A stretch of DNA of 64,000 nucleotides, taken from contig NZ_AP027362.1 of the NCBI RefSeq assembly GCF_030295935.1, positions 2,170,001-2,234,000 of the forward strand. The letters run 5' to 3'. The notes under the pieces were generated by a model that had not been told where the DNA came from, did no database searches, and saw only the letters and a program-made list of their open reading frames with translations. The translations under genes and the position numbers were made by a program. Shown here piece after piece: positions 1,923-56,437 of the stretch (position 1 is its first letter; every line of letters begins with the position of its first letter). This DNA is from Thalassotalea piscium (GTDB lineage: Bacteria > Pseudomonadota > Gammaproteobacteria > Enterobacterales > Alteromonadaceae).

Positions 1923-2152
1923 AACCTGAATTCTGGATAAGCTATACACGTCAATGTCACGATTTTTGCGCGTATCTGCGTTAAATTTGCTACTAATAGC
2001 TCGCTATTAGGTACGCAAACTTGCCTTGATTCACTCAAAACTTATAACATTGATATATAACTACATAAGCAATACGATTAATTTATAACAAGCAATTGAA
2101 AAATATAGTTTTTCCGGTGTTACTCGTACATCCGTTATCCAGAACTCAGGTT
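1923..2152. repeat. Family A terminal-inverted-repeat element, 230 bp copy
   Basis: The left end AACCTGAATTCTGGATAAGC is mirrored at 2131-2152, whose complement starts AACCTGAGTTCTGGATAA. The interior has no gene. Related ends are at 42529-42612 (an 84-bp version) and 10556-10575 (single end). The pattern is that of a non-autonomous miniature transposable element: inverted ends, no transposase and variable interior length. It separates purC from the terminator of the rplT operon, so it probably sits in or near the purC promoter region. Confidence 0.75.
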
Positions 2153-5514: not shown

Positions 5515-5711
5515 GATTTTTCCTTTAAACAGTGGCAGCGCATACCAAGCGACGCTTGTTATTTTTTCGTTTATTGAGTCAGATTTTAATAATGATTACT
5601 AAAGGGAAAACAAAGTAACTTATCAAATAATATAATGGCGAGAGAATATAGGGTAAAATCAGTAAAATTGCAATCAACTAACTTGCATTATTTATTATCA
5701 ACTAGAGAATT

Positions 5712-6590
5712 ATGACAACTATATTAGCATTAACTTTATCAGCTATTTTCTTTTCATTAATTTTAGGCGTGACCGCCAGTGCTAATGCTCAAACAGTAAC
5801 TGCTGAACAAGCATTAAAAGAAAAGCATTTGTATGAAAAATCTTTCAATCAAGCGCAATGGCAAACTTGGTATGAAACACCAACTATCAAAGTTAGCCAA
5901 CGACCTGCTATGTTTAAGGATTTATACCAATCTCACTAACTATGTGATCATTTCTACTGGTTAAAACAATCAACTACTGCGTTATTTATTTTATAATTAG
6001 AACAACTAGTTATAAAAATAAATGCCTTGTATTTGACTGTTTTCTCTGCGCATAAAATAGATCACTTAATTAATGAAACTGGTATTAATTGAGGTTAAAG
6101 CGGAAATTTCTGTTAACACAACCGATAAAGAGTTTTTAGCTTTTTTAAATGATACACAGCAGATGACGAGCTGGTTTGATAATACTCAGCAGATTAAACA
6201 GAGTACGAGTTCGAAAGGCGATGCTATTATTATGTTTCAGTTTAAATCAGTTTTTATTAGTAAAAGAAGACAAATGGTGGTTAAGTATAAAACAATAAAA
6301 CTAAATGCTGATAAAACACTGATCACCATTATTGATCAAGGAGAGCAACTTGACCCAACTTTATTGTTTTAAACACAACATTAATGAATGTACATAAAGC
6401 CCACTGGTTAATAGAGAATACTACCGACGATAATACCAACGATAAAATCAATGTGACTTATCAATTTGTTATTGATCCTAAAAGTCGTTTCCCTATGTGG
6501 TTAGCCAATAAATATTTATTAAAAAGCACGTTAAACACATTACAAAATATTAATGCTAAATTTTCGGGTGTCTTAGACAAACCACATTAA
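5712..6590 (+). pseudogene. START/SRPBCC-like exported protein, interrupted by a family B element and a frameshift
   Basis: Three coding pieces add up to one protein. The first (5712-5939) has a signal peptide and ends EQALKEKHLYEKSFNQ...FKDL before entering a repeat element. The second resumes in frame at about 6086 (IEVKAEISVNTTDKEFLAFL). The third (from 6369) continues NVHKAHWLIENTT to the stop at 6590. Removing the element 5927-6084 together with one copy of the flanking TTA restores GAT-TTA-ATT-GAG in frame. Adding one T to the T run at 6367-6370 joins pieces two and three. The pattern (signal peptide, MTSWFDNTQQIK, PMWLANKYLLKSTLNTLQNI) resembles START-domain lipid-binding proteins; that family call is moderate. 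The gene appears inactivated. Confidence 0.7.
5924..6085. repeat. Family B terminal-inverted-repeat element, 162 bp, inside a gene
   Basis: It starts ATACCAATCTCACTAACTAT and ends with the complement of ATACCAGTTTCATTAATTAA, giving inverted ends of about 30 bases with scattered mismatches that share GTGATC. TTA flanks the TACC...GGTA core on both sides, compatible with a short target duplication. It lacks the middle segment of the 212-bp copies. It supplies the stop codon of the first gene fragment and an ATG that falsely appears to start the second. Confidence 0.85.
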
Positions 6591-6616
6591 GCGTTATGCT
6601 GTTCTAGCAGTTTAGG

Positions 6617-18563: not shown

Positions 18564-18725
18564 ATACCAGTTTCATTAAATAAGTGATCTATTTTATACG
18601 CAGTGAAAACAGTCAAATACAAGGCATTTATTTTCATAACTAGCTGCTCTAATTATAAAATAAATAACGCAGTAGTTGATTGTTTTAACCAGTAGAAATG
18701 ATCACATAATTAGTGAGATTGGTTT
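18564..18725. repeat. Family B element, 162 bp, between slyD and its terminator
   Basis: It starts ATACCAGTTTCATTAAATAA and ends with the complement of the ACCAATCTCACTAATTATGT end (last bases degenerate). Same length as the copy at 5924 but in the opposite orientation, and likewise lacking the middle segment of the long copies. Confidence 0.85.
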
Positions 18726-19223: not shown

Positions 19224-19313
19224 TAAATATCCAATTTACTTGTCTATAAGTGGTTAATGCGGCAAGTTTAGCAAAGATGTTATCACTGCCAAAGTAATTA
19301 ATGGCTACTGTGC

Positions 19314-19429
19314 GTTTTTCTACGGCATTTTCACTTATTTATGGGGAATAACCCCATTACATAAGTTCAGCCTTGTATAATCACCCAATAAATCGCTGCA
19401 AAAACGTACAGAAAAGAACAACACGCCCT
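19314..19429. repeat. Truncated family C element (right part, about 116 bp)
   Basis: From TTTTTCTACGGCATTTTCAC to ACAACACGCCCT it matches 22736-22851 with only scattered differences. The left half and left inverted end are absent. It lies 13 bases before the end of the decayed EamA transporter gene. Confidence 0.8.
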
Positions 19430-19442
19430 AGTAGAATTACGC

Positions 19443-20358
19443 CTAAAGTAATAAAATAACGACACTCGCAATAATTAACGCCATACCTAACATATTCCAT
19501 CGCAGTAATTTTTTCTTTAAAAATTCGATCGGTTAAAAACAAGGTGAAAAAAACTCAATTTGACCAAGCGCTTTAACGCAAGCCGCATTTTGATAACTTG
19601 CCCCTGTAAACCAACCAATTGACCCCAGCACACTCGTAATACCAATAAATAAGCACAAACGCCAATGGATGAACATCAGTAATAATTGTTTTTTGTCTTG
19701 AAACCAAACATAAACCACTGAAATTAAAGATTGTACGGTGATCATAAAAACTAAAGTTACCGCAGCACTAACCATTAAGTCGATATTAAGCGCTAAGCTA
19801 GACTGTCGAATAAGCAATGTTGTTATTGCTAATGCTAAACCAGAGACTAAGCCAAAACCAGCACCTGGGTTTTGCAATAAATCTTTTGTAGTAAACTTGA
19901 CCTTTGATAAAATAATAACGCCGACAACGCCAATAACAACCGACAACCGACAACCAGCCTAAAAAGCTCATTGAAACTGAAAAAACTAAAGCCGCCACAA
20001 TTGCCACTTGAATTGCTTCTGTTTTCGCTAAACTTGTTGCCACCGCAAAGTTTCCATATTTAAACGCTGCCACTAAACACGCTATGCCTATAATCTGCAT
20101 AACACAGGCAATTAGCGCATATTGTAAAAATTGAGGATTAAGTTCAGGAATAGATTGTTGACGATACTCCAATAAAAATACTAAATAGAGCACTGCAAAA
20201 GGCAATGCATATAAATAACGTACGCCCGTTGTTGCCATGGCATTTAAATGCACTGATAACTTTTTTTGACCAGCGGTACGTACGGCCTGCATAAAAGCAG
20301 CAAGCAAGGTAAATCCAATCCAAATTTCCAATGAGCGTCTAGTATGTGCAGTTAACAT
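19443..20358 (-). pseudogene. EamA/DMT-family transporter, broken by three frameshifts
   Basis: Ten-helix drug/metabolite transporter remnants, N-terminal half from 20358 (LEIWIGFTLLAAFMQAVRTA...), C-terminal half in other frames. Lesion one is a perfect 7-bp tandem duplication (CGACAAC at 19941-19947 and 19948-19954): deleting one unit restores WLSVVIGVVGVIILSK. Lesion two is a missing base in the A7 run 19547-19553: with eight it reads QIEFFFTLFLTDRIFKEKIT. Lesion three is an extra base near 19488: without it the tail reads EYVGMALIIASVVILL, ending at the TAG 19443-19445. EamA proteins move small metabolites across the inner membrane; no function is expected here. Confidence 0.88.
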
Positions 20359-22449: not shown

Positions 22450-22492
22450 AAAAGACTCTTTAAAGGGTTAAATAATTACATAAAAGTTAACT

Positions 22493-22851
22493 AGGGCGTG
22501 TTGATCTTTCGAGTACAAATTTTGTACGAATTAAACATGATTTAATTGAGGCGTAGCGAATAAAGTGTAGTATTCTACATAAATGAGCTAGACAGCTTCC
22601 GCGTCCTGCTCACGCTAAGTACCTACTTCCGTGTAGGCACAGCTTCCGCGTCCTGCTCACGCTAAGTACCTACTTCCGTGTAGGCAACGAAAAGTAAATC
22701 ATGTTTAAACGTATCCGTAGGACAGCTCCTCTTTGGTTTTTCTACGGCGTTTTCACTTATTTATGGGGAACAACCCCATTACATAAGTTCAGCCTTGTAT
22801 AAACACCAAATAAATCGCTGCAAAAATGTACAGCAAAGATCAACACGCCCT
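22493..22851. repeat. Family C terminal-inverted-repeat element, 359 bp, full copy
   Basis: The left end AGGGCGTGTTGATCTTTCG and the right end GCAAAGATCAACACGCCCT are near-perfect inverted repeats bounded by T and A. The interior has no open gene, includes a tandem 47-bp duplication (22592-22685) and a right part shared with 19314-19429. It occupies nearly all of the 468-base gap between fdhD and the next gene, leaving about 40 bases before the fdhD start. Confidence 0.85.
22592..22685. repeat. Perfect 47-bp tandem duplication inside the family C element
   Basis: Units 22592-22638 and 22639-22685 are identical. Each begins ACAGCTTCCGCGTCC and ends with the small palindrome CCTACTTCCGTGTAGG. 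They are GC-richer than the surroundings. Identity suggests a recent duplication by slippage or recombination. Confidence 0.9.
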
Positions 22852-22917
22852 AACTATTTATATTAATTTCGACTTTGCGCTATAATAACAACCAATAGTA
22901 AGCGCAAGGAAGCTATC

Positions 22918-25284: not shown

Positions 25285-25492
25285 ATTCCCGTTTCATTAA
25301 CTAGGTGATCTATTTTATAGGCAAGAAGAACAGTCAAATACAAGGTGTTTTTATAACGAGTTATTCAGGGCAGTTATGCTCCAGCGTTGTCCACATAGGC
25401 TGCATCCTTGTAGCGATAATTATTAAATAAAATACGCAGTAGTTGGTTGTTTTAGCTAGTAAGAATGATCACATAGTGAGTGAGATTGGTAT
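25285..25492. repeat. Family B element, 208 bp, upstream of pgi
   Basis: It runs from a degenerate left end (ATTCCCGTTTCATTAACTAG) to the conserved right end GAGTGAGATTGGTAT. It contains the middle segment of the long type with GCTCCAGCGTTGTCCACATA and a hairpin-prone CTGCATCCTTGTAGC. It is the most diverged of the long copies. It ends 28 bases before the pgi ATG, so the pgi promoter must lie within or before it. Confidence 0.8.
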
Positions 25493-35080: not shown

Positions 35081-35113
35081 ATACCAATCTCACTAACTAT
35101 GTGAGATTAGTAT
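35081..35113. repeat. Solo family B palindrome, 33 bp (ends fused)
   Basis: ATACCAATCTCACTAACTAT matches the family B end, but the sequence turns straight back as GTGAGATTAGTAT, giving a 33-base near-perfect palindrome without any interior. It lies in the 412-base gap between the chemotaxis gene and tRNA-Leu; the remainder of that gap holds two terminators and unremarkable AT-rich sequence. Confidence 0.7.
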
Positions 35114-42712: not shown

Positions 42713-42924
42713 ATACCAGTTTCATTAATTAAGTGATTTATTTTATACGCAGTGAAAACAGCCAAATATAAGGCGTTTATTTTCATAACTAGTTGTTCAG
42801 CGTAATGATGCTCCAGCATTGCCCACATAAGCTACATCCTTGTAGCGATAATTATAAAATAAATAACGCAGTAGTTGACTGTTTTAGCCAGTAGAAATGA
42901 TCACATAGTTAGTGAGATTGGTAT
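42713..42924. repeat. Family B element, 212 bp, ending on the greA stop codon
   Basis: It runs from ATACCAGTTTCATTAATTAA to TTAGTGAGATTGGTAT and includes the long-type middle with GCTCCAGCATTGCCCACATA and the hairpin GCTACATCCTTGTAGC. The flanks are TTA on both sides of the TACC...GGTA core. The greA stop codon (complement of 42924-42926) uses the last T of the element plus the flanking TA, so the insertion lies exactly at the end of the gene. Confidence 0.88.
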
Positions 42925-56225: not shown

Positions 56226-56437
56226 ATACCAATCTCACTAACTATGTGATCATTTCTACTGGCTAAAACAGTCAACTACTGCGTTATTTATTTTATAATT
56301 ATCGCTACAAGGATGTAGCTTATGTGGGCAATGCTGGAGCATAATTGCCCTGAACAACTAGTTATGAAAATAAACGCCTTGTATTTGGCTGTTTTTACTG
56401 CGTATAAAATAGATCACTTAATTAATGAAACTGGTAT
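56226..56437. repeat. Family B element, 212 bp
   Basis: From ATACCAATCTCACTAACTAT to AATTAATGAAACTGGTAT; inverted relative to the copy at 42713 and nearly identical to it, including the middle GCTACAAGGATGTAGC hairpin and GTGGGCAATGCTGGAGC. It lies 35 bases past the end of the 2H-phosphoesterase-like gene. Confidence 0.88.

Follow-up and report, generated by a model that had tools for sequence, protein, structure and literature searches.

A START-domain gene of Thalassotalea piscium has been broken, and the explanation in which we place considerable confidence is that a MITE-type insertion did so, that the inserted element is mobilised in trans and that its conserved core acts for the element itself. 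The locus was studied within a stretch of 64,000 nucleotides (the window), and the features discussed here are collected in Table 1. A non-autonomous element of 160 bp inserted into the gene beside thrS in cut-and-paste fashion and inactivated it, duplicating the target TTA as it did so, and a further frame change would have completed the decay, with either order of the two lesions being conceivable. The element probably spreads with the help of a transposase supplied in trans, which would recognise the TACCA termini together with TWA targets. Its interior is more than filler, being a conserved hairpin that is maintained by compensatory changes and common to elements with different termini, and the core would most likely serve the element as a folded single strand, either as ssDNA at transposition or as RNA.

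Table 1. Positions in the window of the interrupted gene, the inserted element and related elements and cores.
Feature	Position	Strand	Basis or remark
START-like gene, 5' part (hydrophobic N-terminus, W..W region), including the first TTA	5712..5924	+	ORF 5712-5939; joined product matches homologues
Target duplication TTA, left copy	5922..5924	.	Flank comparison
160-bp hairpin element (v1 vehicle), termini TACCA/TGGTA	5925..6084	- (hairpin sense strand)	Copy alignments, folds, flanks
Structured core of the window element	5965..6042	-	R2, E 6.4e-18
Target duplication TTA, right copy	6085..6087	.	Flank comparison
START-like gene, middle part	6085..6372	+	ORF list; homologue matches
Frame-change stretch, both frames open	6354..6372	+	Stop positions of middle and 3' frames
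START-like gene, 3' part, different frame (ORF 6384-6590)	6372..6590	+	Matches 12/15 homologue loci, <=46% identity
Core in third context, upstream of ORF 788-1891 (purC-like by eye)	1964..2041	-	R2, E 1.4e-6
Second 160-bp copy in the window	18565..18724	+	Core 18607-18684
v2-type element, remnant	19311..19431	-	Core 19311-19388
v2-type element, other termini (CTAGGGCGTGTTGATCTTT...)	22491..22853	-	Core 22733-22810
Diverged longer copy, related termini	25286..25491	+	No R2 match at E<=1
210-bp form, stems as in the 160-bp form, other apical part	42714..42923	+	Core 42756-42883
210-bp form	56227..56436	-	Core 56267-56394

The stretch 5712-6590 is confirmed as a decayed START-domain gene. Three ORFs are listed there, 5712-5939 (75 aa), 6073-6372 (99 aa) and 6384-6590 (68 aa), flanked by the minus-strand genes thrS and dcd, with the START-like gene head-to-head with thrS. 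The ATG of the middle ORF (6073) is supplied by the right end of the 160-bp element. Joining 5712-5924 to 6088-6372 by script gave 166 codons with zero internal stops, and the product matched every one of the 15 ORFs of the homologues, with E values from 1.5e-15 to 2.2e-6, the longest alignments spanning the junction at residue 71. An earlier note on this DNA had read the three fragments as one exported protein whose frame returns once the element and one TTA are removed; the single protein and the open joined flanks stand, while the element itself has to be drawn at 5925-6084 and not at 5927-6084. The last ORF lies in a different frame from the middle one. Its frame is closed as far as a stop at 6351-6353 and the middle frame ends in its own stop at 6370-6372, and because of these two stops the frame shift is placed between them. 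A second lesion had been proposed at the T run 6367-6370, which is compatible with a change within about 6354-6372, although no single base can be assigned; the change may be a real lesion or a sequencing error.

The homologues come from a search with the middle piece in 98 genomes, the own genome apart and with no other member of the genus among them, in which 15 were found. All 15 are single ORFs of 203-290 aa, measured from stop to stop, and 13 lie head-to-head with thrS. The earlier note had considered that relatives might keep the fragments as conserved separate genes, or hold an intact homologue that includes the element; what was found is one intact ORF beside thrS at those 13 loci and, in eight of eight aligned homologues, an uninterrupted LIEIKA-like sequence at the insertion site with no insert. 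Its proposal of a once-intact START-like exported gene interrupted by an insertion is borne out by these homologues and by 40 copies of the element in the own genome. The thrS-dcd synteny that it had meant to use in relatives proved special to the window genome, dcd not being found in the flanks of relatives that were examined.

The START profile (PF01852) matched five of the eight intact homologues, and a profile built from all eight had a match at 2.9e-27 to the STAR-related lipid transfer protein PDB 3qsz. The broken gene resembles bacterial START-domain proteins in that its homologues match both of these references, and differs from them in being a pseudogene. The fragments in the window reach no Pfam cut-off by themselves (sub-threshold names in that scan being chance), and a scan of the named genomes with the middle fragment gave no close homologue. 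The eight-homologue profile found a match in 179 of 295 genomes sampled from the family, the own genome counted. Four element-bearing relatives (G008, G025, G038 and G056) gave no match to this profile, and no homologue was found in the stretches examined upstream of their thrS, the G038 stretch ending 2.7 kb upstream; the START-like gene is accordingly dispensable. The breakage of a gene by a MITE is an ordinary and routine event. Elsewhere in the window, a membrane-transporter-like gene (by eye) at 19533-20358 on the minus strand is split into two overlapping frames, so that either decay in this region has affected more than the START gene or the assembly contains frame errors.

The inserted element is short and gene-free, has terminal inverted repeats and lies within a target-site duplication, as is characteristic of MITEs. 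At least 40 near-full-length copies with 95-100% identity to the window element are present in the own genome, and the layout of the flanks was compared in 40 of these and in 20 copies from other genomes. TACCA/TGGTA ends were found in 40/40 own copies. Identical 3-bp flanks border 38 of them (19 TTA, 18 TAA and 1 TGA, hence 37 TWA), the remaining two have flanks that differ in one outer base, and the middle base agrees in all 40. The TTA on both sides of the window copy, which had been raised as a possible target duplication, is upheld by this regularity. A target duplication was also seen in 13 of the 20 copies from other genomes, three of those 20 being without clear termini, and, among the 55 named-genome copies whose termini are good, in 40. 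In the own genome each strand holds 109 occurrences of a 15-base terminus pattern and none of its reversed control. Order-wide, a covariance model of the 160-bp element found a match in 106 of 295 genomes, and the matches listed span all 160 positions.

The family is also variable in length, with forms of 46, 91, 160-161 and 209-210 bp, most length variants having TTA or TAA flanks. At least five copies of the 210-bp form are flanked by TTA or TAA, which indicates that this form moved as such. In both 210-bp forms of the window the apical part is replaced by about 50 nt, a terminal-domain swap, and the replacement can, by eye, make two extra small hairpins. A 31-bp mini-palindrome at 35082-35112 is built from the left terminus alone. 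At another locus of the own genome (L311, G000:C1:56625-57110) a 160-bp copy, bordered on each side by TTA, seems to have inserted into another member of its family.

The clear polarity that had been attributed to the element holds true in that the minus strand gives a far better fold of the hairpin (-56.7 kcal/mol, z -11.0) than the plus strand does (-37.5 kcal/mol, z -5.6), and the minus strand is the better-folding one in 40/40 own and 18/20 foreign copies. The hairpin consists of an outer stem, a purine-purine mismatch, an asymmetric loop AAGGC/AACGC, an inner stem and a UURUU loop, this terminal loop being present in the core alignment A4 and in most rows of alignment A2. The latter comprises 21 copies from 14 genomes, selected by whole-element similarity, and shows a compensatory change at 21 of 46 consensus pairs, with the caveat that quasi-palindrome correction can also yield compensatory changes. 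Double-change cells in A2 number 98, compared with 26.4 in shuffles and 11-23 when the structure is slid; as A2 itself is the source of the consensus structure, that structure is favoured over the slid versions, chiefly for the share of cells paired. In the outer stem of 83 distinct cores, 484 of 581 cells are paired (shuffle maximum 337), and the tenth pair of this stem is G-C in 25, A-T in 24, T-A in 22 and C-G in 7. A 34-sequence core alignment gave 217 double-change cells compared with 79.2 when shuffled and 47-74 when slid; further pair types in this alignment are not above the shuffles, 83 of 500 of which reach the count.

Three core anchors in alignments A3 and A4 were set by the search pattern, and invariance there is partly ascertainment; since the pattern fixed them, the constancy of the anchors in pattern-chosen cores is no evidence. 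The anchors are mostly near-invariant in A2, an alignment that was not pattern-chosen. G-U cells exceed A-C cells by 69 to 10 in A2 and by 79 to 21 in the named outer stems, and more weakly in v2 (18 versus 11) and in the inner stem (13 versus 8). As the G-U excess is strong in the former and weak in the latter, we regard a folded single strand, whether RNA or ssDNA, as likely in the TACCA form; in the other forms it is unproven. Rfam 15 gave no match at E<=1 over window positions 5700-6600, and at the gathering threshold the window and 12 named loci gave nothing but tRNAs.

The interior of the hairpin is shared among different vehicles, the window element being one form of a structured element that is spread over many Proteobacteria. 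R2, a covariance model of the 78-nt core built partly from the window copy, finds seven cores in three contexts in the window, and the same core lies within elements whose ends are different (GGGCCTGTTGA and GGAAGCTCTGA among them). An anchor-pattern scan of the named genomes returned at least 120 stretches. Among the matches listed, core stretches occur in Shewanella, Pseudoalteromonas, Vibrio, Aliivibrio, Colwellia, Thalassotalea, Thalassomonas, Psychromonas, Alishewanella, Alkalimonas, Aliidiomarina, Parashewanella and Acinetobacter. A simple classifier divided the 108 contexts among the matches listed into 58 with TACCA-type ends, 31 with a TAGGGYCTGTTGATC-type start and 19 others, most of which resemble one of these two types by eye. 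The ends of the TAGGGYCTGTTGATC-type (v2) elements are the inverted repeats TAGGGCCTGTTGATCTTT...AAAGATCAACAGGCCCTA, and the arms are wholly different in G+C-rich genomes. In sampled genomes R2 found a match in 53 of 369 from the class and in 54 of 398 from the phylum, 26 of the latter being outside the class and 25 of these in one family. Four Acinetobacter loci (L265, L203, L207 and L228) carry the v2 form. Acinetobacter belongs to another order by common taxonomy, and the presence of the v2 form in it suggests wide or lateral spread. Within the window, the core at 1964-2041 sits directly upstream of its purC-like ORF in a context unlike those of the v1 and v2 vehicles, and the v2-type element at 22491-22853 contains a perfect 47-bp tandem duplication (22592-22685).

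Termini were sought in 23 loci, of which L330 was dropped as its anchor was unmatched and L327, at a contig end, gave none; L335, L340 and L341, where the sequence is unrelated, had been set aside. A candidate inverted terminal pair of one of several types was seen in 21 of the 23, some of them doubtful; examples are CTAG|GGCCTGTTAACAC (L337), TTAA|GGAAGCTCTGATC (L332), TTAG|GGAACCTCTGAA (L333) and TTA|TACCAAT (L195, L197). Flanks of 4 bp, CTAG, TTAA or TTAG, border L328, L329, L332, L333 and L337, the remaining loci being mixed, so that across the 23 the flank repeats are of 3 or 4 bp in some and only TA or nothing in others. Insertion of the IS5 type produces a 4-bp YTAR duplication. Nine core pairs were found in 34 loci, all nine inverted and with the cores 26-30 nt apart, which makes the arrangement end-core-core-end a frequent larger vehicle; the 160-bp form holds one core.

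Several other explanations bear on these observations. The core might be kept since its RNA serves host genes, through mRNA stability, processing by RNase III or RNase E, or termination, in the manner of ERIC and NEMIS. One strand does fold much better, G-U exceeds A-C in the A2 and v1 stems, and the available text of PMC2229807 describes RNA effects of ERIC, yet co-directional neighbours of the 40 own copies (500-bp flanks) are split 8 versus 9 by element orientation, and convergent sites are favoured over divergent ones by 8 versus 2, neighbouring genes in both counts being called crudely as stop-free stretches. Such a preference is expected of any repeat that avoids promoters, as for the P. 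fluorescens repeats in the accessible part of PMC2718517. A role for the host is unlikely in our estimation, and because of the even split and the convergent preference we think it more probable that the core serves the element. It is also conceivable, if somewhat unlikely, that this is a plain MITE whose hairpin stems from an ancestral inverted duplication and whose pairing is refreshed by quasi-palindrome correction, the interior being functionless. Typical termini, a duplication, high copy number and the 46-, 91- and 210-bp variants, most of them in TTA or TAA flanks, are all in keeping with such an origin, but correction would erase the mismatched internal loops, which occur at the same place across families, and the core is also found inside elements with unrelated termini and arms.

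A different doubt concerns the gene, as the three fragments could be separate working genes, or the frame change a sequencing error that leaves the element as the sole interruption. No genus mate was among the relatives searched, and the middle fragment does possess an ATG from the element; against this, homologues are single ORFs, the eight aligned run on over the site, and the 5' fragment alone would be a 75-aa stub. We judge this decidedly improbable. Beyond the reading of a gene broken by a MITE with a core that works for the element, there is a broader proposal, which we offer tentatively and as a fair possibility short of a favoured one: the core may be one structured nucleic-acid module, outside Rfam 15, that several kinds of small mobile element with different termini have captured in Gammaproteobacteria and at least one other class of the phylum for a benefit it brings them, namely a signal in ssDNA or RNA that some widespread factor of the host or of transposons recognises. 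Otherwise unrelated MITEs would then have a mobility or survival signal in common. The recurrence of the folded core hints at a common mobility or RNA signal. For the deletion derivative of an IS it is unexpected that a core should keep its pairing while arms and element ends are replaced, and this raises the question of which factor reads the hairpin and whether that factor explains how certain MITE families reach about 100 copies per chromosome with no visible parent.

Known repeats share some of these properties. REP units are short, carry a GTAG-type tetranucleotide, leave no duplication and are mobilised by RAYT. REP and BIME repeats resemble the present elements in being abundant and chromosomal and in forming mosaics of paired inverted hairpin units, and, going by these features, differ from them in that the vehicles here end in inverted repeats and make duplications of 3 or 4 bp. 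ERIC (IRU, RU-1) of Enterobacterales and Vibrionaceae, 127 bp long with a TA duplication according to the available portions of PMC2759123 and PMC2229807, is likewise a gene-free imperfect palindrome with many chromosomal copies, wide taxonomic spread and a hairpin in the transcript of one strand; compared by description, the present element differs in its 3-bp TWA duplication, length of 160 bp, TACCA termini and a core common to other element types. YPAL (RU-2) of Yersinia, at about 168 bp, is similar in size, palindromic and predicted to fold, but in the available text (PMC2229807) it is described as not A+T-rich, with no TA at its ends and duplications of 3-26 bp, whereas here a constant 3-bp TWA and TACCA termini are found; by eye, TACCA termini are absent from the RU-2 sequence as printed in the accessible part of PMC2759123. 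CIR repeats of Caulobacter and other Alphaproteobacteria, of about 110 bp and with a GANTC methylation site in the loop (PMC2229807, available part), consist of two long stem-loops and a linker conserved across genera, reminiscent of the dual-core form, and by description differ from the hairpin here, which has a UURUU loop and AAGGC/AACGC internal loops and no GANTC terminal loop. Identity with ERIC, YPAL or CIR was rejected on these features as published in the available texts, duplication, size or loop being different. SonMITE_1 is named as a MITE of Shewanella oneidensis in the accessible part of PMC10969869, and resembles the v2 form in being a Shewanella MITE. Our literature search found no description of the element; subscription papers, including that of SonMITE_1, were outside its scope, so an earlier description of a vehicle is possible.

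The termini, the duplication and the copy number lead us to propose that a DDE-type transposase acts in trans. Non-exhaustive searches for transposases and terminal pairs found no autonomous element with TACCA termini; to our knowledge, many accepted MITE families are likewise without a known parent. DDE_Tnp_1 loci had no TACCA-type termini, DDE_Tnp_4 gave no match in six genomes, and in the loci examined no two termini bordered by a duplication were found at a spacing of 0.6-3.5 kb. Plasmids and phages were rejected as carriers: three Pseudoalteromonas plasmid records match the window element, for which phages gave none, and two v2-type elements gave one and four weakly covered plasmid records. 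In the own genome an IS4-family transposase of about 470 aa is present in nine copies with equal scores (L134 and L152, for example), a recent IS burst. These copies were dismissed as the parent, since within the 1.5-kb flanks the transposase is not bounded by TACCA-type termini. A two-core element lies beside one of them (L152), and no core pair beside the other eight.

Locus L128 has the look of an autonomous parent, a transposase lying between two cores and TACCA termini, in that R2 matches stand on both sides of a 392-aa IS4-family transposase. We give this reading next to no credence, for the transposase has termini of its own (CTGA..GATCCCCA-like, 1277 bp) flanked by a 9-bp CCCTTCGGG repeat, the host element without it is 267 bp with two cores, and zero cores were found in 30 loci of related transposases. 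The candidate is thereby refuted as a nested insertion, which we take to be IS10-like from the resemblance of its termini. This insertion (L128:989-2541) sits in the linker of the two-core element, and the linker CCCTTCGGG is itself near-palindromic.
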